Virus record (IMG/VR): IMGVR_UViG_3300043119_000597
Coordinates: 1-32,574 of that record
Strand: one strand, 5' to 3'
DNA: 32,574 nucleotides
From: a virus
The notes under the pieces: model-generated
The model's input: the letters and a program-made list of their open reading frames with translations, nothing else
Databases searched by the model: none
Told to the model about the DNA's origin: nothing
Translations under genes and position numbers: made by a program
Shown: positions 2,558 to 29,731 of the stretch, one piece after another
Layout of the letters: every line of letters begins with the position of its first letter
How positions within the stretch are numbered: the first letter of the stretch is position 1

Positions 2558-4012
2558 CTAAAGCACGCGCCAATTGTCCGCCTTTGGTGGGGGCCTGTAG
2601 TCGCGTGGTCGCGTCAGAGGTTCAGGCGCTCCGGGCGTAAAGCCTGGGTGCGCCATGTCGATCACCATGCCCATCAGGGCGCAGGTATCGACCAAATCGT
2701 CATGCTTGCCAGCCGGGAAGCTCAGGAGCTGGTTAAGCACCTTCTCGCCCAGATCAGTCTTGGGCAGGCTCACCTTGCCCATCGCAGCGCGAGCCTGAAA
2801 TGCTCGGGCTCTGGTAGGCTTGTCCGAGATGGACGGTATCCATTCCGTGCGCGCGAACACGCGCAGCTCGTTCATGCGCCGGGTCAGCATCGGCTTGACC
2901 GCTTTCACAATCACGCCAGCCTCTCCGAAGTAGCAGAGCGGCTTATGCTGCTTGACCAGCCGCAACAGCTCCTCGATCCACACATCCGCTGACGTTTGGC
3001 CGGTCCAGCCATCAATCAGCGTTAGCGTGTCCTCGTGATAGTTCCACACAAGGTGAGCGGTGAAATCGCCCCCATCTTCGGTCACGGCATAGTCGCTGGT
3101 GATATAAACATGCCCCTTGGCAGGGGGGTCTGTATGCCTCTTGAACCAGTCCCGGAGGAAGAACGTGCCGTCGTCAGGCGTCGGGTTCTGCTGGTAGAGG
3201 GCTTCGAAGTCCCGAGGCCCGATTGCAGCCTTGATGCGCTTCAGGGCGTCGACGTTGTAGCGTTCAGGCCAGAGCGCCTGGTTATCCTTGATCGCCGGCA
3301 GGTTGACCTTGACCCACTTGTCACCGCCGTTCTGTTCGGCTTCCAGCAAGCGCCCGCCTAGGTCGTCCTCATGCCAGCGTGTCTGGATGAGAATGACAGC
3401 CCCGCCCGGCATCAGGCGGGTGTAAGCCGTGCTGGTGTACCAATTCCAGATGGTCTCGCGCCGCAGCTCGCTCTCGGCTTCCTCGCGATCCTTCACAGGG
3501 TCGTCAATCAACAGGATGTGAGCGCCGCGACCCGTAACAGCCGTTCCGACACCAGCCGCAACGTAAGCCCCGCCCGCGTCAGTGTTCCACCTGCCGGCCG
3601 CGCGGCTGTCCTCCGCCAGCTTCACATTGAACAGGCGGGAGAATTCGTTGGTCCTGATGATGTTGCGAACCTCGCGCCCGAAGTCCGAGGCAAGGTCGCT
3701 GTTGTAGCTGGCCGCGATAATCTGCTTGTCAGGGTTCCGGCCCATGTACCAGGCGGGAAAGCGCCGCGAGGCCAGTTCGGATTTGCCGTGACGTGGCGGC
3801 ATGAAGATCATCAGGCGATCAATCTCGCCCCGTTCAACCGCTTCCAGCTTCTCGGCTATCTCCGAATGTGGCGGTGCAGGCTCGTAAGCGTGGTTCGTGT
3901 AGCTAGTGAACGGGATCAGACCCGTTCGGGCCTTCCGGCGCTTCAAAAGCTCCAACGCTGCCGCTTGTGGCGATATGTGCGAGGTCGCTATCGCTAAGTT
4001 CGCTTGGCTCAT
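2558..4012 (-). CDS. Terminase large subunit (packaging ATPase and nuclease)
   Basis: The motor protein that translocates DNA into the prohead through the portal and cuts the concatemer. Of its 484 residues, the ATPase half carries Walker A PPRHGKSE (about 72-79) and Walker B HILLIDDP (165-172). The RNase H-like nuclease half carries a first acidic motif at TSDYAVTEDGGD (305-316) and a terminal acidic pair in KHDDLVD (436-442). Length and motif order are typical of terminase large subunits with fused nuclease. The first 110 nt overlap the terS reading frame. The N-terminus up to 'ALELLKRRKAR' looks like the usual start of this family, so the overlap appears genuine. Confidence 0.95.
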   Translation of the reverse strand: MSQANLAIATSHISPQAAALELLKRRKARTGLIPFTSYTNHAYEPAPPHSEIAEKLEAVERGEIDRLMIFMPPRHGKSELASRRFPAWYMGRNPDKQIIAASYNSDLASDFGREVRNIIRTNEFSRLFNVKLAEDSRAAGRWNTDAGGAYVAAGVGTAVTGRGAHILLIDDPVKDREEAESELRRETIWNWYTSTAYTRLMPGGAVILIQTRWHEDDLGGRLLEAEQNGGDKWVKVNLPAIKDNQALWPERYNVDALKRIKAAIGPRDFEALYQQNPTPDDGTFFLRDWFKRHTDPPAKGHVYITSDYAVTEDGGDFTAHLVWNYHEDTLTLIDGWTGQTSADVWIEELLRLVKQHKPLCYFGEAGVIVKAVKPMLTRRMNELRVFARTEWIPSISDKPTRARAFQARAAMGKVSLPKTDLGEKVLNQLLSFPAGKHDDLVDTCALMGMVIDMAHPGFTPGAPEPLTRPRDYRPPPKADNWRVL

Positions 4013-4277
4013 GCTTGTGAGAGAATGTCCCTGTCACGCTGGACAGCTTCGGATGCAGGTAGGTCGCAGCAGCCGCAGCCATTGCATCCCGGCGCCGCTC
4101 GTCTGCGGTCGGGTCGCGCATCACGCGAAGCATGTATTCCAGCGGAGTTTCGCCATCTTCAGCGGCAATCATCGCCTTGCGCGTAAAGCTCTGCTTGGCG
4201 ATTAGCTGCTTCGAACCTTTTGGCCTGCCAGCGCCTGGACGCTTTCCGCCTCGTTTGCTGTCTTGGTTCTCACTCAT
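3903..4277 (-). CDS. Terminase small subunit
   Basis: Predicted DNA-recognition subunit that directs the large subunit to phage DNA. The 124-aa protein starts with a basic glycine/arginine tract (KRGGKRPGAGRPKG) that often opens small terminases. It is followed by a helical block around 'GETPLEYMLRVMRDP' and 'RRDAMAAAAATYLHP' that I recognise from alphaproteobacterial phage TerS proteins. It sits directly upstream of terL and overlaps it by 110 nt in another frame. No clear ribosome binding site precedes the ATG. Instead an AT-rich palindrome lies six bases upstream. Confidence 0.85.
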   Translation of the reverse strand: MSENQDSKRGGKRPGAGRPKGSKQLIAKQSFTRKAMIAAEDGETPLEYMLRVMRDPTADERRRDAMAAAAATYLHPKLSSVTGTFSHKHEPSELSDSDLAHIATSGSVGAFEAPEGPNGSDPVH

Positions 4278-4282
4278 TGAAT

Positions 4283-9252: not shown

Positions 9253-9892
9253 TCGGTTGCTCCGCTGTGGAGATGCCCGCCAGGCGGCGGTCACGGTTTT
9301 CGATTGCTATGGGGCGGACGTAGTTCCAGCTGGTCAGGCGTCCGCCTTCTGCGTGGAATTTGCTTGCTGCGGCTTGCACGGCTGGGATGATGTCCAGCTC
9401 TAGGTCACAGGGATCGCCCTTGATGGGCGCCATGAGTTCTATGAACATATCGACGCGATGCATCTTCGGCTGCGACCAGTCAGCAGAGCCGTTGACGTGA
9501 CACTTGATGGCTTCGAAGATTTCGCCTGTGCGATTTCTCAGATCGCGCTGGGCTTGGGTCCGGCCCTCGCGCGTGTCCGCCTGTGAGGTTGTAGTTGAGT
9601 AGTTTGAAAGGGGGGTCTGGGGGGAAAACTTGTTCGAGCCGTCACCAACCGTCACCGGTGACGTCACATCCGTCACAGTGACGTCACTAGCGTCACAGGC
9701 AGCACGACCACCGCCCCCCTCTGATTTCTTCGCGCGCCACTTGGCTGTGCGTTCTGCCGCCCTCGACCGAGCGGGTTTTTCTTCAGGCTGCACGACCGCA
9801 GCGCGTTCAACTTCAGCGATAGCCGTCACCAGAGCGTCACCTGTGACGCCTGCGGCCAGTAGATGCTTGAGGGTGGTTGCTATGGGACCCAT
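9077..9892 (-). CDS. Phage replication protein with internal iteron-like DNA
   Basis: The 271-aa protein has an N-terminal helical segment ('ATTLKHLLAAGVTGDALVTAIAE'), then a basic region ('RAAERTAKWRAKK'). A low-complexity Val/Thr/Asp stretch follows at about residues 66-84, then a folded middle (about 105-205) and a Gly/Arg-rich tail. This order resembles phage replication proteins that bind the origin, as in lambda O, where the origin lies within the gene. The Val-Thr stretch is encoded by phased GTCAC repeats, supporting that comparison. It is followed by further replication genes. Functional call is an inference; the last 59 codons are shared with the next frame. Confidence 0.7.
   Translation of the reverse strand: MGPIATTLKHLLAAGVTGDALVTAIAEVERAAVVQPEEKPARSRAAERTAKWRAKKSEGGGGRAACDASDVTVTDVTSPVTVGDGSNKFSPQTPLSNYSTTTSQADTREGRTQAQRDLRNRTGEIFEAIKCHVNGSADWSQPKMHRVDMFIELMAPIKGDPCDLELDIIPAVQAAASKFHAEGGRLTSWNYVRPIAIENRDRRLAGISTAEQPNGRRATANAGGASGAYRGRGPSQDPLDLALANIRGRQAETVIIDHPVTAVASRTYSGV
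9641..9696. repeat. Iteron-like GTCAC repeats, candidate replication origin
   Basis: GTCAC occurs at 9641, 9651, 9663, 9672, 9683 and 9692, spacings 10, 12, 9, 11 and 9, close to one helical turn. The inverse GTGAC joins it twice to give the palindrome GTGACGTCAC at 9658-9667 and 9678-9687, exactly 20 bp apart. A second small cluster has GTCAC at 9825 and 9836 and GTGAC at 9843. The block lies inside a replication-type gene, beside a purine-rich tract (9607-9628). The phasing suggests several protein copies bound on one DNA face. Confidence 0.6.
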
Positions 9893-10404
9893 TCCAGAGC
9901 CTCCACAACGTCGTGCTTGCCTTCAGCGCGGGCAATCGTGCGCAACAGGAAAAGCATCGCCTGGTCTGCGCACTTGGCCGCGCTCCGATGGATCTCCGAG
10001 CCAGTGAACCGCATGACCGGCCACTCTTTCTCGACAAAGTACCGATCCCGCGCCTTGTCGTGAGCAGCCTGCTCCTTTGTCTTTTCGTGGAAATCGTGGC
10101 CGTCGCATTCCACTGCCAGCCGGACTGTGTGGCCGTCTGACAGCATCACCAGCGCGAAGTCTGCGCGATACGGACCAATCTTGGCTTGCGGGACAATAAA
10201 CAGGCCGGTGTTACGCGCCTCGGGGAGATCGGACTGAACGGCCAGAAATCCGATTGAAGACAACGGGTGAGCCAAAAGCGCCAGCGCCAGCTTTTCCTCA
10301 ATCGGGCTTTGCTGGAGCGCAACGAGGCGCTTCGCCATCTCCGTGATGTAGGCGCGGCGCTCCCTCATATGCAGCTCAACGGCGTCGGACAGAAGCGTGC
10401 TCAT
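9880..10404 (-). CDS. DUF559/Vsr-like nuclease domain protein
   Basis: The 174-aa protein fits the very-short-patch-repair/DUF559 branch of the PD-(D/E)xK nucleases. An 'SPIEEKL' helix opens at residue 33, 'YRADFAL' carries D82, 'LAVECDGHDFHEKT' carries E99, D101 and H103, and 'ARDRYFVEKEWPVMRFTGSEI' closes the fold. It may nick or cut DNA in early infection or repair, or degrade host DNA. It is the second gene of the leftward operon, ATGA-coupled to the first, and overlaps the next gene by 13 nt. Family is fairly sure; the biological target is unknown. Confidence 0.8.
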   Translation of the reverse strand: MSTLLSDAVELHMRERRAYITEMAKRLVALQQSPIEEKLALALLAHPLSSIGFLAVQSDLPEARNTGLFIVPQAKIGPYRADFALVMLSDGHTVRLAVECDGHDFHEKTKEQAAHDKARDRYFVEKEWPVMRFTGSEIHRSAAKCADQAMLFLLRTIARAEGKHDVVEALEWVP

Positions 10405-11613: not shown

Positions 11614-11650
11614 TGACGACATGGTTTTCGCTGGGAGCGAAAATGGGGCC

Positions 11651-11971
11651 ATGCGCAAACAGCCCCATCCGTTCTTCCTGAAGCAGTGGCGCCAGCATAG
11701 GGGGCTAACGCAACAGCGTCTGGCAGACAGGGTGAGCCTATCGAAGCCCTTCATTTCCGAGATGGAGCGCGGGATAAAGGGCTACAGCCAGGAAACGCTA
11801 GAAGCCTTGGCAGAGGCCTTGATGTGCGCCCCGGCTGACCTTATCATGCGCGATCCGACATCCCCCGATCCGATTTGGTCGGTCTGGGACAAGGTGCCAG
11901 CTACTAAGCGCAATGATGCGCTTCGCGTACTGGCCGCATTTGCAGAAGATTCGGCAAAAACAGGGACGTAA
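11651..11971 (+). CDS. XRE-family transcriptional regulator
   Basis: A 106-aa regulator with a lambda-repressor-like helix-turn-helix at about residues 10-65 ('LTQQRLADRVSLSKPFISEMERGIKGYSQETLEALAEAL'). A short C-terminal extension ('IWSVWDKVPATKRNDALRVLAAF') may be for dimerisation. No peptidase domain is present, so it is not a LexA/CI-type self-cleaving repressor. The start MRKQPHPFFLKQW fits the family; an ATG ten codons upstream is possible. Divergent from the smaller XRE gene and upstream of the recombination/integration operon, it is a candidate switch protein. Confidence 0.85.
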   Translation: MRKQPHPFFLKQWRQHRGLTQQRLADRVSLSKPFISEMERGIKGYSQETLEALAEALMCAPADLIMRDPTSPDPIWSVWDKVPATKRNDALRVLAAFAEDSAKTGT

Positions 11972-14365: not shown

Positions 14366-14774
14366 CACCAACACGCTCCCGAAGCCCCTCAAACGCCGCA
14401 GCTTCACAGCGCGAGAAGTGGCGTCCGTCTTCATCAAGTACGATGGACGCTGCGCCTCATGCGCGGAGAAGGTGAAGCTTGGCGAGTACGCGGTTGACCA
14501 CATCCAGGCGCTCGATCACTTGGGCGCCCATACCTTCGACAACTGGCAATTGCTCTGTGTCGGCTGTCACAAGCTTAAGACCGCAAGCGATGTGAAGGCG
14601 TCTGCAAAAGGCCGCAGAATACGCGGTGAATCGGGCGCAGGCCCGAAGAAGGCAATCCCCAGCCGAGGCTTTGGCCGACTTCCCGAGGGACGCGATCCGA
14701 AACGCTGGCAGAGCGCGGGTTTTGACCGCAGCAAGACGCGCGGGTTCAACGGCAAGGTGAGGGAGCGGACATGA
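14358..14774 (+). CDS. HNH endonuclease with zinc-binding cysteines
   Basis: A 138-aa protein with a compact HNH nuclease: C32-x2-C35, then 'VDHIQALDHLG' (D47, H48), N62, and C67-x2-C70-H71 in 'LLCVGCHKLKTA'. The four cysteines should bind a structural zinc. The C-terminus is basic and Gly/Arg-rich, presumably for DNA contact. The start overlaps the end of ninB by eight bases. In lambda a similar slot holds NinG and other junction-acting proteins, so this enzyme may process recombination intermediates rather than home. It is unrelated in sequence to the HNH gene near 5.6 kb. Confidence 0.85.
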   Translation: MPDTNTLPKPLKRRSFTAREVASVFIKYDGRCASCAEKVKLGEYAVDHIQALDHLGAHTFDNWQLLCVGCHKLKTASDVKASAKGRRIRGESGAGPKKAIPSRGFGRLPEGRDPKRWQSAGFDRSKTRGFNGKVRERT

Positions 14775-15118
14775 CCCTCGATCTGCTGACCACGGAACAG
14801 GTTGCACAGATCCTTAAGGTCAAGGATCGCAAAACCGTGCGCAAGCTCGTGAAATCGGGCAAGCTGCGCCGTGTTATCATGGGCGAGCGTAGCGTGAGGT
14901 TCCGGCCAGAAGACGTTGCAGCATACCTGCGGGAGCTACCGTGTCACTCACCAGACGAGGCCGTATCTGGCACTACGAATTTGAAATCGCTGGAGAACGT
15001 TATCGCGGGACCACGCGGCAGACGGAAAAACCCAAGGCGCGGATTGTCGAACGACGGGAATACGACCGGCGCCGTGACCAGCTTACCTTGGGTGAAACAA
15101 AAGGAACCGTCACTCTGA
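14771..15118 (+). CDS. xis: Excisionase-like helix-turn-helix protein
   Basis: Residues 1-55 form a MerR/excisionase-type winged helix ('LLTTEQVAQILKVKDRKTVRKLVKSGKL', then 'GERSVRFRPEDVAAYLRE'), which would bind the attachment site and turn integrase towards excision. The remaining 60 residues look unstructured, basic and unlike the family. They are encoded within the first 178 nt of the integrase gene in another frame. GGGAG precedes the ATG, which overlaps the HNH stop. Because the domain is complete before the overlap, the tail may be a passenger. Confidence 0.82.
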   Translation: MTLDLLTTEQVAQILKVKDRKTVRKLVKSGKLRRVIMGERSVRFRPEDVAAYLRELPCHSPDEAVSGTTNLKSLENVIAGPRGRRKNPRRGLSNDGNTTGAVTSLPWVKQKEPSL

Positions 15119-16017
15119 CGGATGCCTCGGTCGCGTGGTGGACCGCGAGGGGTCAACACCTGCGATCAGCCGGCACAGTCGCAATCCGGCTGGAAATCCT
15201 GCGGCGATGCCTAGACTTCTCCCTGCCCGCACGATCGATCGACACGCCAGACGTTGAAAAGGCCATGTCCAAGCGGCGGGGCGAGGTCACGCACAACGGC
15301 AGGCTGACAACGCCATCGACCGCCAACCGGGACATCATCGACACCCTGCGCCCGATCCTGAACTACGCTAGGCGCGTGATGAAGGTTCAGGGGATGCCAG
15401 AGATAGACTGGTCCGCGCTGCGCCTGCCAGAGCCCAAGGGCCGGGTTCGCGAGTTCACCGCGGCAGAGATGACGGCGATCCGGGCCAAGCTGGCGAGCGT
15501 CCCGCATCACCTCGCCGTGTTCGATTTCATAGCGACTTTTGGCGTCAGGCTGCGCGAAGCATGGTTCCCGCTGAACTGCCTCGACGTGGACGGGCGCCGC
15601 ATCTCCCTGCGCAAGCGGAAGGGCGGAGACTGGCATACCATCCCGATCAATGAGGCATGGGCGCGCGACCTCGCCGCACGCTCTGGACGGGCCGCTAAAG
15701 CCCGCCTGCGCTATGTCTGGTTCTGGGAGGACAATCAGGGCTCGATACACGAACTCGCGCCCAGCAGCTTCCAGCACTACATGGCCGACACGCTGGACGC
15801 CCTCGGCATCCATGACGCTCGCCCTGCCCATGATCTGCGCCACCATGCGGCAACGCAGTACGTGCGGCGCACGGGCTCCCTCGCTGGCGCAAAGCGTCTC
15901 CTAGGCCACGAGAACATCGCCACGACGGCACGCTATGCCCACGCCTCGGAAGACGACGTGCGCAGCGGCCTGTTCGGATCTGAGCCCGCCCCGGCCAAGC
16001 AGGACAAGGCGTCATGA
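14941..16017 (+). CDS. int: Tyrosine integrase
   Basis: Catalyses recombination between attP and the host attB. The 358-aa protein has an N-terminal arm-binding region beginning 'MSLTRRGRIWHYEFEIAG', a SAM-like core-binding domain (about residues 55-150) and a catalytic domain with R203 ('FGVRLREAW'), K225 or K227, H297-x2-R300 ('HDLRHH'), H323 ('LLGHENI') and nucleophile Y332 ('ARYAHA'). The start is GTG with GGGAG five bases upstream. This start lies 178 nt inside the excisionase frame, but the N-terminus is typical of the family. Its attachment site lies 100 bp downstream. Confidence 0.95.
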   Translation: MSLTRRGRIWHYEFEIAGERYRGTTRQTEKPKARIVERREYDRRRDQLTLGETKGTVTLTDASVAWWTARGQHLRSAGTVAIRLEILRRCLDFSLPARSIDTPDVEKAMSKRRGEVTHNGRLTTPSTANRDIIDTLRPILNYARRVMKVQGMPEIDWSALRLPEPKGRVREFTAAEMTAIRAKLASVPHHLAVFDFIATFGVRLREAWFPLNCLDVDGRRISLRKRKGGDWHTIPINEAWARDLAARSGRAAKARLRYVWFWEDNQGSIHELAPSSFQHYMADTLDALGIHDARPAHDLRHHAATQYVRRTGSLAGAKRLLGHENIATTARYAHASEDDVRSGLFGSEPAPAKQDKAS

Positions 16018-16061
16018 GAACAGGCGCTGAACCTATTGCGGGGGGTATTGCGTGGACCGCA

Positions 16062-16098
16062 TTCCCTGCTAATCCCCATGTTCCCCCAATATTCCCCC
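16062..16098. repeat. Phased C-tracts, candidate integrase arm sites
   Basis: TTCCC/ATCCC/TTCCC/TTCCC words begin at 16062, 16072, 16081 and 16092, about one helical turn apart. The inverse G-tract lies at 16040-16045 next to a TATTGCG repeat. They fill the space between int and the tRNA fragment, where arm-type binding sites usually lie. Another G-tract occurs on the far side of attP at 16214-16218. Confidence 0.45.
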
Positions 16099-16118
16099 TC
16101 AGAACGGGAAAACACCAT

Positions 16119-16163
16119 GCGGGTGTGGCGGAATTGGTAGACGCACTGGTTTTAGGTTCCGGT
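16119..16163 (+). other. attP: 5' half of a tRNA-Leu (anticodon UAG)
   Basis: The sequence reads as the acceptor 5' strand (GCGGGTG), D-arm (GGCGGAATTGGTAGACGC) and anticodon arm with loop TTTAGGT, i.e. anticodon UAG. It then departs from any tRNA: there is no variable arm, T-arm or acceptor 3' strand. Position 39 fails to pair with 31 (T-T), so homology probably ends near 16157. It lies 101 bp downstream of int. Phage genes on both sides indicate attP rather than a prophage end. Confidence 0.8.
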
Positions 16164-16235
16164 CAGTCTGTGTTGCAGAACAATAGCTTACGCAGCCCGA
16201 GCCACTGGATTGTGGGGGCTAATGTGCAGTTGTCG

Positions 16236-16472
16236 CTAATTTGGTTGTTTGACGTGGATGCGGATTGCCCGCTCTGGAACCCAGCGCGATCCGGCTTCGA
16301 CCAGACACGTCCCGTCCCTGTAGTGCGCGCGGAGGCCGCTGTCCTTCCACCGGCTGCTGCAATCGATGTGGAGCCCTAGCAGCCAGATACCAGACGCCAC
16401 GAGCCCCGCCACAATCACGGATAGAGCCGCGAGCGTGACAGGGCTGAGCGGGATGCGGACAGTCTTAGCCAC
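16236..16472 (-). CDS. Small single-pass membrane protein, end of lysis operon
   Basis: A 78-aa protein with one hydrophobic helix (about residues 12-33) and a polar, basic domain of 45 residues containing two cysteines (C38, C57) that could pair in the periplasm. The start is GTG, overlapping the previous gene by eight bases. It is the last gene before attP. It may assist lysis, but its family is unknown. Confidence 0.6.
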   Translation of the reverse strand: MAKTVRIPLSPVTLAALSVIVAGLVASGIWLLGLHIDCSSRWKDSGLRAHYRDGTCLVEAGSRWVPERAIRIHVKQPN

Positions 16473-25468: not shown

Positions 25469-28400
25469 TTAGTTGGGTTTGGCGCTCTGCTTGTTCCGAA
25501 CCGCGACGTTTTTCGGATCGAACATCACGTAGTTACGCGTTCCAGACTTCGCCTCGCGTGACGCACGGTCGAGGAACTGCGCGCCCTTGATGCCGTTGGC
25601 GCTGAGTGCTTCGCTTGCCGCCTTGTCGTTGCCCATCGCCATGAGGATGTCATAGCCGCTGGCCTGCGGATCAAGCGGGGCGTCACCCTTCATGTTGCGC
25701 CATGCATCGGCAACGCGGCTTTGAACGATCTCGGTCTGACCGGACAGCGGGGCGTCGAGGTCGAACAGGTCATCACCCTGCGCGTCAAGGTCCACTTCAT
25801 AGAACGCGCCCTGCTTGGCAGACATATCCGTGGCGCGGCCCTTGTTGAGCGCATCGAGGGCGCGCTTGTATTGTGTCGGATCTGTCCTGCCCGCCTTCTT
25901 TATCTCGCCCTTCAGGAACGCGCGGACCTTCTCGACGTCGCCGCCTTCGTGGTAGAGTAGCGATCCGGCGAAATCCTCGGGCGAACCGCTGTTCTGTCCG
26001 ATGGAACGATAGAAGTTCGCAAGGTTCGGACGTTCGGCAAAGTAGAGGCCATAGCCGCGCGATTGCGTACCCTCTCCGCTGCCGACCGTGTCGTCAGTCA
26101 GCGCGAACTCGTCAAAGTCGTGCTTGCTGCCGTGGTATGCCCTGATCTTGCCCGGCGCGGGCGCATCGGCCATCGGCTTCGGGGGCCAGTTCTCGGGAGG
26201 CTTCACGATGGGAGCCCCAGGCTTAGGCGCCAGCGCATTCACAGCACCACGCACGCCACGGCCTGCAATGCCTCCGGTGAGCGCGCCGCCTGCCGCGTTG
26301 AGCATCCGGTCCGCGTCGTTGATGACGCCGTCACCGTTCGCGTCTGTGAGGTTCAGCGTGCCGCCTGCTGCGGCTCCAAGGCCCGCGCCTATCGCTTCGG
26401 GCTGGCCTCTCACACCAGCTAGAAGCTTGGAGCTTTGTGTTTCGGAGGGGTCGAAGGACGCGAACTTGGAGCGGATGTTTGCTTCATTGCCGGGGAAGAC
26501 GACAATCTCGCCGCGCCATTTTGCGCCATCGTAGCCCAGCGACTGAGCCGCCTTCGTAAAGGCTTCAGCATCCTCCGCGATGAACTCGCGCCCACGATCC
26601 TGACCAGCGCCGGGAGGATAGACTTCAAGTGGCCGACCAGTCTGCTGATCGCGTGCGATATTTTTATACCCGGCTTTCTCAAATTGCGCAGCAACTTCTG
26701 GAGAGTTCGCCAGTTCTTCCGTGAATGGCTTTTTCATGCGGATGAGAACAGGAATGTTTCGCGCGCCGTCCTTGAGTTCGCCAAGCTCTTCGCCATACTG
26801 GCCGTATGCGTAACCGGGCGAGTTCGGACGCGCGTTTGATGCTTTGAAGCGTTCGGTGGCGGGCGCGAAATAGTGACCACGCCCCATCCAGCCCGGATCG
26901 CTGCGGCCAATCTTCGTTGGATCGAATGCGTCGAAATCCGCAGACGTTGCATGAACGCCTTCAAAGACCTGATGGTCCTTGCCCCACTCTCTCGCTCTCT
27001 GCATTCGAGAGGGCTCATCCATAGGAAGGGACTTCCCTCCGAAGCCGTTCTTCACTGGAGGGGGCTTGGGGGTGGCGCTCTGCGGGGGCGCTGTTGCTGC
27101 AATCTCGTCAAGCTCACGGTTCGACCGCTCAGCCATGCGCCTGATGGCGTACTGAATGCTAACAGCGCGGTTCAGGCGGTCCTGCGCATTCGGGGCTTTG
27201 CTGTTCTTCAGTTGGTCGATGACGTACTGCTGCGCCTTGAGCGCTTTATCGACGCCGCCGTTGTAGCTCACGAGCCGCTGGGCTTCTTTCATGAAGCGCT
27301 GATCGAACGCGGGCGCGGCTTTGGGCTTAGGCGCCAGCGCGTTCATCCCGCCACGCACGCCACGGCCTGCAATGCCTCCGGTGAGCGCGCCGCCTGCCGC
27401 GTTGAGCATCCGGTCTGCGTCGTTGATGACGCCATCACCGTTCGCGTCTGTGAGGTTCAGCGTGCCGCCTGCGATGGCTCCACCGCCTGCGCCTATCGCC
27501 TCGGGCGAGCCAGACATGCCAAGGCGGTTCACAGGCGGTCCCTGCGGCGTCGGGGGCGGCTCCACGTTGAGCGCATTGCGTGGGGGGCGGTTGCCGTAGA
27601 TGCGGGCCAGGTTCTCGTCAGTCGCGCCGCCGTAGAGCATTTCGGCAATGCGATTGCGCTGGTCCTGCGTGTAGGCGCCAGAGCGTGACAGCATGGCAAG
27701 GCCAGCTTCCAGCGGGTTGCGCACGGCTCGGAATGCGTCAGCGGCCACCGCTCCCATGCCACGGTCTGCCATGCCGGCCTGCGAGGTCGCGGAGCCGAAA
27801 TCGGGGTCACGCCGCTGTGCGTTCTTCAAGATGGTCTGGTCGGCCCTGATCCGTGCAACGAGATTGTCAGCCGTTTCGCGATCAAACACCGCGCCGAACA
27901 CTTCGCGCATACGCTCGCTGGAGAGGCCATCAAGGCCGCGCGCTTTCTCGATGTCGAGAACGATCTTTTCAACGGCGCCCATCTGCAAGGCCGTCAGAGG
28001 CTTGCCGGTGAACTTGGAGGCAATGGCGCGGACTTTCTCAACCGACAGCCCGCCGCCTGCGACTTGTGCCCCTTGCTTACGGGCTTCGCGCATACGGGGC
28101 GCGTCGGCTGCGTCCCGCAAGGGTTTGTACTCTGGCATGAGCGCATCAAGCTCGTCCTTGATCGCGCCGCGCGCCTTCTCAAGTTCATACGCCGCTTGCC
28201 CGCCCGAACGCTTCTGGCTCTCGATGGTGCGATCCAGCCCGCGCTTGACCAGATCCCATATGCGCGCGTTGCTGGGGGCTTGGCCTGCGGTTGTCTGAAG
28301 GCTTTCGGACGCCTGGATTGCGCGGCGCACGTACGGGCCAACAACCGGGTCATCCGCCAACTGCATCAGGCGTTCAGAGTTGACACCTGCATTATCCGCA

Positions 28401-29731
28401 AACAGCTTTTCGTAAGCCGGGCTGATTTCTTCGGATGCCTGCTTGATGGCCGCGTCAATATCGCCCGTGACCGTCGCCGGGTCGATCTTCGTTGTCGCCT
28501 GAACGTCAGTGAACAGCCGTCCCGTGCGCGTGCGTGCAAGGTCGCCTGACTGCTCGCTTGCGAGTTCCGCCGCCCTTCCCGGCTGGCGCGACAGGCCAAC
28601 GCTGAAGTTCTGCGCGTTCTGCGTGAGGTCGGCCAGCACGGACGGCTTGTCGCCAAACTGCGCCATATCAACAGCGCGAATTTCATCAGCCGAACGGCCG
28701 GCAGGGGCCAGAGCATTGCGCGCCGCGCGCACGGCAACCGCTTCGTTAAACCCACCGCCACGGATCGCGCTGCCTGCGGCTCGGTATCCACGCGCCGCTA
28801 CCCTTGGCGCGATCATGCCCGCAAAGGCTCCCGTCACCGGGTTGATGATATCAGGGCCGCCATTGCCGTCACCGCCAGAGGCTGCGAGTGCGTCACCCGC
28901 ACCGCCCGCAAACGCACCCACGCCACCGCCAACGATCCGGTCCGCATTGTTCCGCAGGAACCCGCTCGATTTGGGCTCTGCGGGGGCGCTGAAGGGCGCT
29001 GGCTGCGGTTGGGGGGCTGCGGCTTGCGGTGCGGGCTTGCCTACAGGCGGGGCTCTCGTGGCCTGCACGGCTGCGCGTTCGAGGTCGGCCACGTTGAGCG
29101 CAAGCGTGTTTTTCGGCACGTTGAGGCCGCGCGCCGCCATCGAGCCGGGAAGCATCTGAAGGGCTGCGAAGCTGCCATCTATGGACGCTTGCTGCGCGCC
29201 TTGGGCTGCCTTGCCCATGTCGCCTTCGATGAGGCCCGCGCCCGCCTGCTTGACGCCTTGATAAGCGCGTCCGAGGTCGTCCACGGGGCTGATGAAGTCC
29301 ACAGCCTGCGTTGCGCCGAGAAGCGGGTCGGCCTGCGTCGTGCGCGCCCAGCCTTCAAGCCCGCCACCCGTCAAGCCTGCAATGGGAGCCTCTAGGCCGC
29401 GCGCAACGTCCGCGAGAAGGCTGTTCGTGTTTCCCGTGTCAGCCATGCGCGGCTGCTGGGCCTGCGGGCGGGCATAGCCAGACTTGGCGAGCGGGTCTTG
29501 CACATAGCCCATCGCCGCCATGCGCTTCGGATCGGCAGGCTTGGCATCGAACGCCGCGAAGCCGCCAGGAATGGCCGCAGCCGCTTCCTCGATGATGGCG
29601 TCAGTCTCGGAGCGGAGGGACGGTGCGGCCGCTTTCGCCTCAAGCTCGCGCAGCCGCTTCATCTTGCGCAGCCGTTCGAGTTCGGCGCGGGGGTCTGGCG
29701 CCGTCTGCATTTGTGGCTCTTGCGGGGGCAT
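25469..29731 (-). CDS. Giant ejection-type polyvalent protein with two ADP-ribosyltransferase-like domains
   Basis: A 1420-aa protein in the slot of P22 gp16-like ejection proteins, expected to enter the host with the DNA. Order: coiled coil (about 13-35); Ala/Gly-rich region; Gly-rich hydrophobic hairpin around a 'GGDGNGG' loop (263-314); helical region (about 400-690); copy 1 of a Gly-rich/EF-hand module (743-803, loop DANGDGVINDAD); ART-like domain 1 (about 918-1105, 'RGHYFAPATERF', 'FPGNEANIRSKFASFDP'); copy 2 of the module (1111-1171); ART-like domain 2 (about 1195-1420, 'AYHGSKHDFDEF', 'GYGLYFAERPNLANFYR', 'YVMFDPKNVAV'). The ART calls rest on resemblance to polyvalent-protein ART domains. 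Such effectors may modify host targets on entry. Confidence 0.85.
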   Translation of the reverse strand: MPPQEPQMQTAPDPRAELERLRKMKRLRELEAKAAAPSLRSETDAIIEEAAAAIPGGFAAFDAKPADPKRMAAMGYVQDPLAKSGYARPQAQQPRMADTGNTNSLLADVARGLEAPIAGLTGGGLEGWARTTQADPLLGATQAVDFISPVDDLGRAYQGVKQAGAGLIEGDMGKAAQGAQQASIDGSFAALQMLPGSMAARGLNVPKNTLALNVADLERAAVQATRAPPVGKPAPQAAAPQPQPAPFSAPAEPKSSGFLRNNADRIVGGGVGAFAGGAGDALAASGGDGNGGPDIINPVTGAFAGMIAPRVAARGYRAAGSAIRGGGFNEAVAVRAARNALAPAGRSADEIRAVDMAQFGDKPSVLADLTQNAQNFSVGLSRQPGRAAELASEQSGDLARTRTGRLFTDVQATTKIDPATVTGDIDAAIKQASEEISPAYEKLFADNAGVNSERLMQLADDPVVGPYVRRAIQASESLQTTAGQAPSNARIWDLVKRGLDRTIESQKRSGGQAAYELEKARGAIKDELDALMPEYKPLRDAADAPRMREARKQGAQVAGGGLSVEKVRAIASKFTGKPLTALQMGAVEKIVLDIEKARGLDGLSSERMREVFGAVFDRETADNLVARIRADQTILKNAQRRDPDFGSATSQAGMADRGMGAVAADAFRAVRNPLEAGLAMLSRSGAYTQDQRNRIAEMLYGGATDENLARIYGNRPPRNALNVEPPPTPQGPPVNRLGMSGSPEAIGAGGGAIAGGTLNLTDANGDGVINDADRMLNAAGGALTGGIAGRGVRGGMNALAPKPKAAPAFDQRFMKEAQRLVSYNGGVDKALKAQQYVIDQLKNSKAPNAQDRLNRAVSIQYAIRRMAERSNRELDEIAATAPPQSATPKPPPVKNGFGGKSLPMDEPSRMQRAREWGKDHQVFEGVHATSADFDAFDPTKIGRSDPGWMGRGHYFAPATERFKASNARPNSPGYAYGQYGEELGELKDGARNIPVLIRMKKPFTEELANSPEVAAQFEKAGYKNIARDQQTGRPLEVYPPGAGQDRGREFIAEDAEAFTKAAQSLGYDGAKWRGEIVVFPGNEANIRSKFASFDPSETQSSKLLAGVRGQPEAIGAGLGAAAGGTLNLTDANGDGVINDADRMLNAAGGALTGGIAGRGVRGAVNALAPKPGAPIVKPPENWPPKPMADAPAPGKIRAYHGSKHDFDEFALTDDTVGSGEGTQSRGYGLYFAERPNLANFYRSIGQNSGSPEDFAGSLLYHEGGDVEKVRAFLKGEIKKAGRTDPTQYKRALDALNKGRATDMSAKQGAFYEVDLDAQGDDLFDLDAPLSGQTEIVQSRVADAWRNMKGDAPLDPQASGYDILMAMGNDKAASEALSANGIKGAQFLDRASREAKSGTRNYVMFDPKNVAVRNKQSAKPN
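26221..26401. repeat. Direct repeat copy near the 3' end of the 1420-aa gene
   Basis: Matches 27325-27505 with about 14 mismatches by eye over 181 bp, offset 1104 bp (in frame, 368 codons). Longest identical run is about 60 bp. Encodes the Gly-rich hydrophobic/EF-hand module preceding ART-like domain 2. Confidence 0.9.
27325..27505. repeat. Direct repeat copy in the middle of the 1420-aa gene
   Basis: Partner of the repeat at 26221-26401. Encodes the module before ART-like domain 1. The mismatches cluster at the two ends of the block and the EF-hand coding centre is almost unchanged, which fits recent duplication, gene conversion or strong constraint. Confidence 0.9.

Follow-up and report, generated by a model that had tools for sequence, protein, structure and literature searches.

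A phage integrase gene flanked by the 5' half of tRNA-Leu(UAG): a likely attP in an integrase clade with 5'-half polarity

Introduction

In the usual account of tRNA targeting, an integrating element restores the 3' end of the tRNA gene and the host promoter keeps control. The locus described here raises the question of what follows when a phage carries the 5' half instead, and from where the rebuilt tRNA would then be transcribed. It lies in a 32,574-base virus record from IMG/VR that has podovirus-like genes; the record was analysed at its full length and is called the window below. The window encodes a terminase large subunit with 60% identity to that of Pseudanabaena phage Pam1, together with a portal protein and DNA-ejection-like proteins.

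Results and Discussion

Identity and extent of the half-tRNA

The stretch 16119-16163 reads GCGGGTGTGGCGGAATTGGTAGACGCACTGGTTTTAGGTTCCGGT and is the 5' half of a tRNA-Leu(UAG) gene, with its left edge at exactly tRNA nt 1 and its right edge inside the anticodon arm. It aligned with nt 1-45 of a rhizobial tRNA-Leu(UAG) gene at 91% identity (E 2e-10) and, over shorter lengths, with other tRNA-Leu(UAG) genes at 93-97%; the 45-base core occurred once in the window, against a chance expectation of 0. When the half-tRNA was fused to 3' halves taken from three genuine tRNA-Leu(UAG) genes, ARAGORN recognized a complete tRNA-Leu(tag). The site comprises two features:

16119..16157, + strand: attP core homology, tRNA-Leu(UAG) nt 1-39 (acceptor 5' strand, D-arm and anticodon loop); identical in five phages, with a sharp conservation edge at nt 1
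16158..16163, + strand: TCCGGT, 3' side of the anticodon stem and partly phage-specific right core half-site; variable among relatives

The 39-nt stretch is GCGGGTGTGGCGGAATTGGTAGACGCACTGGTTTTAGGT. At the equivalent of 16158..16163 the relatives carried GTAACGGT, GTTCCGCT, GTTCCGTT or GTTCCAGA, and after the same anticodon loop complete tRNAs read TACCAG, whereas the phage reads TTCCGG. Because the relatives diverge directly past the anticodon loop and complete tRNAs read TACCAG there, the host-shared part probably ends at nt 38-42 (16156-16160), and TCCGGT is probably not entirely common to the host tRNA. The span 16119-16163 given in the initial annotation was thus probably slightly too long at the right end.

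Conservation of the Leu(UAG) sites

We aligned eight distinct Leu(UAG) sites of the window's integrase clade at tRNA nt 1. The mean pairwise identity was near random before nt 1 (0.28-0.36), rose to 0.92-0.97 over nt 1-38, and fell to 0.79 at nt 39-42, to 0.46 at nt 43-50 and to 0.29, again near random, beyond. If binding by the integrase were all that mattered, the acceptor and D-arm sequence would be dispensable, so the edge at nt 1 fits a requirement to rebuild the tRNA; conservation up to exactly nt 1 exceeds what an integrase core site needs and therefore points to selection for a functional tRNA. On this alignment, the profile appears to mark a site retained so that crossover in the anticodon loop restores a working tRNA.

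The integrase cassette

The half-tRNA lies 101 bp past the end of an integrase gene on the same strand, within the following cassette:

14771..15118, + strand: HTH_17 / excisionase-like gene, overlapping the start of int (Pfam HTH_17 1.1e-12; PHROG excisionase 1.4e-9)
14941..16017, + strand: tyrosine integrase gene, 358 aa, GTG start (Pfam Phage_integrase 1e-15; PHROG integrase 1.4e-26)
14772..16376 (right end approximate), + strand: xis-like/int/attP cassette, 91-93% identical in four phages, whose other matching regions are shorter and less similar

Four other IMG/VR phages encoded integrases 96-98% identical to that of the window and shared the 45-base core at 100%. Since the rest of the five genomes shares far less, xis-int-attP appears to travel as a cassette. 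An ORF at 16014-16379 spans attP; it was rejected as a coding gene, as the sites that vary among the five phages were not enriched at third codon positions. A Cro/CI-type HTH regulator gene (11621-11971, + strand) heads a rightward run of RecT, NinB, HNH, xis-like and int genes that ends at the half-tRNA. Elsewhere, 9880-10404 (- strand) encodes a protein matching the MTES_1575 restriction-endonuclease-like family (Pfam 7.5e-11), and 25469-29731 (- strand) a 1420-aa protein with the ADP-ribosyltransferase domain of polyvalent proteins (ART-PolyVal, Pfam 1e-7).

The alignments to tRNA genes, the adjoining integrase gene and the conservation all agree with the initial annotation, which had placed here an attP-type site holding the 5' half of tRNA-Leu(UAG). 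The half-tRNA might instead be a degenerate remnant without a role, acquired by imprecise excision, and such a remnant would fit our searches of the GTDB genomes scanned, in which the integrase led to no lysogen, attL or attR. We consider this very unlikely, however, given that the half-tRNA is identical in five phages with differing flanks, that nt 1-38 are sharply conserved across integrases down to about 40% identity, and that the half-tRNA adjoins int in all but one of the loci. The exact 45-mer was also absent from the GTDB species genomes scanned, and tRNA matches in plasmid and phage collections were not close enough to name a host group. The missing lysogens and the missing 45-mer weigh against the integration proposed below.

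Polarity across the integrase family

Using an integrase alignment as the query against IMG/VR, we obtained 80 relatives, and in most of those having sequence there, a half-tRNA lay directly beyond int. With isotypes assigned by similarity or anticodon reading, four arrangements were distinguished:

Arrangement 1: 5' half in the direction of int (the window type); Leu UAG, Leu UAA
Arrangement 2: 5' half antisense to int; Leu UAG, Pro, Thr, Val-like
Arrangement 3: 3' half in the direction of int; Thr, Cys, Arg, Pro, Ser, Phe, Trp, Leu UAA
Arrangement 4: 3' half antisense to int; one case

A maximum-likelihood tree was built from 52 integrases, near copies included, of which 35 had 5' halves and 17 had 3' halves. 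All 11 members of the window's clade (support 98/94) had 5' halves, seven sense and four antisense. The 5'-half polarity is therefore the rule in this clade.

The one locus in which the half-tRNA does not adjoin int is L066, where a tRNA-Leu 5' half (4238-4279) lies 650 bp from int and points the opposite way to that in the close relatives L065 and L069, an arrangement that looks like an inversion of the att region. Among distant integrase relatives, antisense tRNA-Pro 5' halves were seen in L012 (3618-3664), L013 (about 3607-3633), L014 (about 3557-3598) and L006 (about 3310-3338), and promoter-like elements lay upstream. The integrase of L012 (2495-3613), that of Sphingopyxis phage VSN-002, is annotated as a 'telomere resolvase', yet it is homologous to the tyrosine integrase of the window and lies beside the half-tRNA.

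Promoter-like elements in the relatives

Most antisense loci, as well as L064 and L066, carried a promoter-like element about 8-24 nt before nt 1, in forms such as TTGC-N16/17-CTAGGG, CTAAGG and CTTATG. A relaxed promoter pattern matched 20 of 32 loci of both orientations (mean of 1.0 in shuffled sequences) and a strict pattern matched 10 of 32 (0.04 in shuffles); the patterns were defined after inspection of the loci, and the comparison with shuffles is thus an effect size rather than a clean P value. Of 20 whole phage records, just two contained the strict 30-base form, the matched sequences being the attP-side elements of L130 and L123. The shape of the element resembles the sigma-70 consensus of S. 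meliloti, CTTGAC-N17-CTATAT (PMC2873474), which is alphaproteobacterial. By eye, the native tRNA-Leu(UAG) genes of Ruegeria and Paracoccus had a CTAG-type -10 at a similar distance, with the full pattern unmatched.

Far-arm repeats upstream of most antisense IMG/VR loci argue for their being attP sites rather than host junctions. L099 and L123 had no P' arm repeats and could represent junctions between an integrated prophage and its host; these two were left out as attP evidence, as were L069 and L134, which end near a contig edge. In VSN-002, RHph_I3_18 and Mvi-Yong1342-1 the element must be phage-borne, since these genomes are complete and circular. In most relatives with an antisense half-tRNA, the phage thus seems to supply both a housekeeping-type promoter and the 5' half.

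attP arms and expression of the rebuilt tRNA in the window

A repeat search of the core flanks in the window revealed short repeats, some resembling those of relatives, which are putative arm sites:

16034..16055, + strand: putative arm-type integrase sites TATTGCGGGG / TATTGCGTGG with 12-bp spacing (direct repeat D2)
16048..16074, + strand: weak, doubtful promoter-like TTGCGT-N15-CTAATC, 44 nt before the tRNA and overlapping an arm-like repeat
16062..16096, + strand: putative second set of arm-type repeats, TTCCC motifs with 11-bp spacing (direct repeat D1), in a region invariant in the five phages
16205..16227, + strand: putative P' arm; conservation with one of the four close relatives (G004) stops here

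Tandem motifs like D2 (TTGTGGGG..TTTTGTGGGG) also occur in the attP arms of relatives. Between 15800 and 16400 we saw no terminator-like or standard promoter-like site, a sigma-70 scan included. The element at 16048..16074 was scored with a matrix built from the relatives, and 6 of 200 shuffles reached its score. Its TTGCG part is one copy of the 12-bp-spaced repeat that resembles the relatives' arm repeats. It was not accepted as the tRNA promoter of the window, as TTGCGTGG belongs to this tandem arm-like repeat.

A promoter for the tRNA could lie within attP itself, ahead of the 5' half, which would make expression independent of int. The TTGM-N16/17-CTAGGG-like elements of most antisense 5'-half relatives, the complete circular genomes among them, and the alphaproteobacterial sigma-70-like shape of these elements speak for such a promoter; however, the sole candidate in the window has a 15-nt spacer, lies 44 nt from the tRNA, overlaps an arm-like repeat and has no counterpart in the sister lineage L060/L061. 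For the window we therefore regard a promoter in attP as possible but doubtful. Read-through from int is the likeliest route of expression, because the window has no convincing promoter and the half-tRNA is in the sense direction directly behind int. The relatives lend support to read-through as well: the close promoter was mostly absent at sense, int-adjacent sites and mostly present at antisense ones, a contrast drawn from few independent sense lineages.

Proposed integration

We are confident that the locus serves as attP for a phage that is temperate, or at least integrates, and whose integrase targets the anticodon loop of a host tRNA-Leu(UAG) gene, with the rebuilt tRNA most likely read out from xis-int. 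The tyrosine integrase would recombine within the anticodon loop of the host gene, of which the phage carries nt 1 to about 39-42 on the int strand, immediately behind int. At the int-side junction, int would be followed by the phage-derived 5' half and the host 3' half, forming a complete tRNA-Leu(UAG), while at the other junction the host promoter and a truncated 5' half would run into phage DNA. The rebuilt tRNA would be transcribed from the xis-int operon and then processed by RNase P, or would alternatively be expressed from a weak promoter of non-consensus sequence in the int-tRNA interval. We infer integration itself, the crossover point, the expression route and the host side from the observed identity, boundaries, conservation and gene order of the site, its clade-wide polarity and the lack of a spare tRNA in the contig. 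The expectation that phage DNA would come to lie upstream of the rebuilt tRNA is supported by a half-tRNA that runs from nt 1 and adjoins int. A complete tRNA-Leu gene at the other junction had been named as an observation that would speak against this arrangement, and none could be formed from the phage sequence.

Neither ARAGORN nor Rfam found a complete tRNA in the 32,574-base window, and none was present on the contigs of the four close relatives (G001-G004); tRNA replacement is thus not evident, although the window's contig may be incomplete and a tRNA-Leu gene might lie beyond it. This bears on tRNA-dependent lysogeny, in which integration destroys the host tRNA and the phage supplies a substitute tRNA of its own. 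Other phages that target tRNA-Leu do follow this course: Rhizobium phage vTRX32-1 integrates at CAGATTTAGGTT, the same position in the tRNA-Leu anticodon loop (PMC8631192), which favours the target proposed here, and both it and a Fonsibacter phage bring a spare tRNA, unlike the window (PMC8631192, PMC6811365). Such systems combine a very short core, sharing about 8-12 bp (PMC10865867, PMC8631192), with a phage-encoded complete tRNA of the same isotype; the window has neither, and its long half-tRNA (core of about 39-42 bp) would rebuild the gene. We give replacement by a phage tRNA hardly any credence here.

Significance

5'-half polarity is rare but known; here it proves widespread in one phage integrase family and is a clade-level trait. 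The usual 3'-end rule is reversed throughout the clade, and the relatives display a visible solution in the promoter-like element carried in attP. We think it somewhat probable that the clade has settled on tRNA 5' halves, with attP sites that either captured a housekeeping promoter or, in the window type, rely on readout from the int operon. If so, the essential tRNA of every lysogen would be transcribed from the prophage and not from its native promoter. In the window, such prophage control of an essential host tRNA would follow from the arrangement proposed above. This is a testable route by which a prophage could take transcriptional control of an essential tRNA, and the arrangements offer a way to find and classify 5'-half att sites.

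Comparison with known systems

A close parallel in gene order is found in T7-like cyanophages, whose attP corresponds to the first half of tRNA-Leu; for S-TIP37 and P-SSP7, integration has been shown (PMC8776855). We read the sequences of S-TIP37, S-CBP2 and S-SRP01, in which, like in the window, int is followed by a same-strand tRNA-Leu 5' half ending just past the anticodon loop; however, their anticodon is CAG rather than UAG and the integrase similarity is distant. These phages are Autographiviridae, whereas the terminase and portal of the window are of another podovirus-like kind. The shared gene order would suit a phage that, as these do, integrates transiently without stable lysogeny, so that loss of the host promoter would be of little import. 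This is rather unlikely for the window, whose Cro/CI-type HTH and excisionase-like genes are typical of temperate phages and whose integrase is only about 23-27% identical, locally, to the cyanophage ones.

Sphingopyxis phage VSN-002, Rhizobium phage RHph_I3_18 and Microcystis phage Mvi-Yong1342-1 have homologous integrases and a tRNA 5' half beside int; unlike in the window, the tRNA is tRNA-Pro, lies antisense to int and has a promoter-like element upstream. The pTN3-like integrases of archaea target the 5' half of tRNA genes, and a review describes the integrase promoter as driving the rebuilt tRNA and 5'-half use as seldom met in bacteria (PMC8371274). Judged by this description, the pTN3-like elements resemble the window in the half used but differ in being archaeal and in having a suicidal integrase, which integration splits. 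Of 88 tRNA-integrated elements in S. meliloti, 9 lie at the 5' end of the tRNA gene and keep its integrity (PMC11476347); by description these other elements, in other hosts, have the 5'-end polarity of the window. The reverse polarity noted in the initial annotation is real in that a 5' half is carried, but it is not a singular oddity, since cyanophages, pTN3-like elements, S. meliloti elements and the window's own integrase clade share it.
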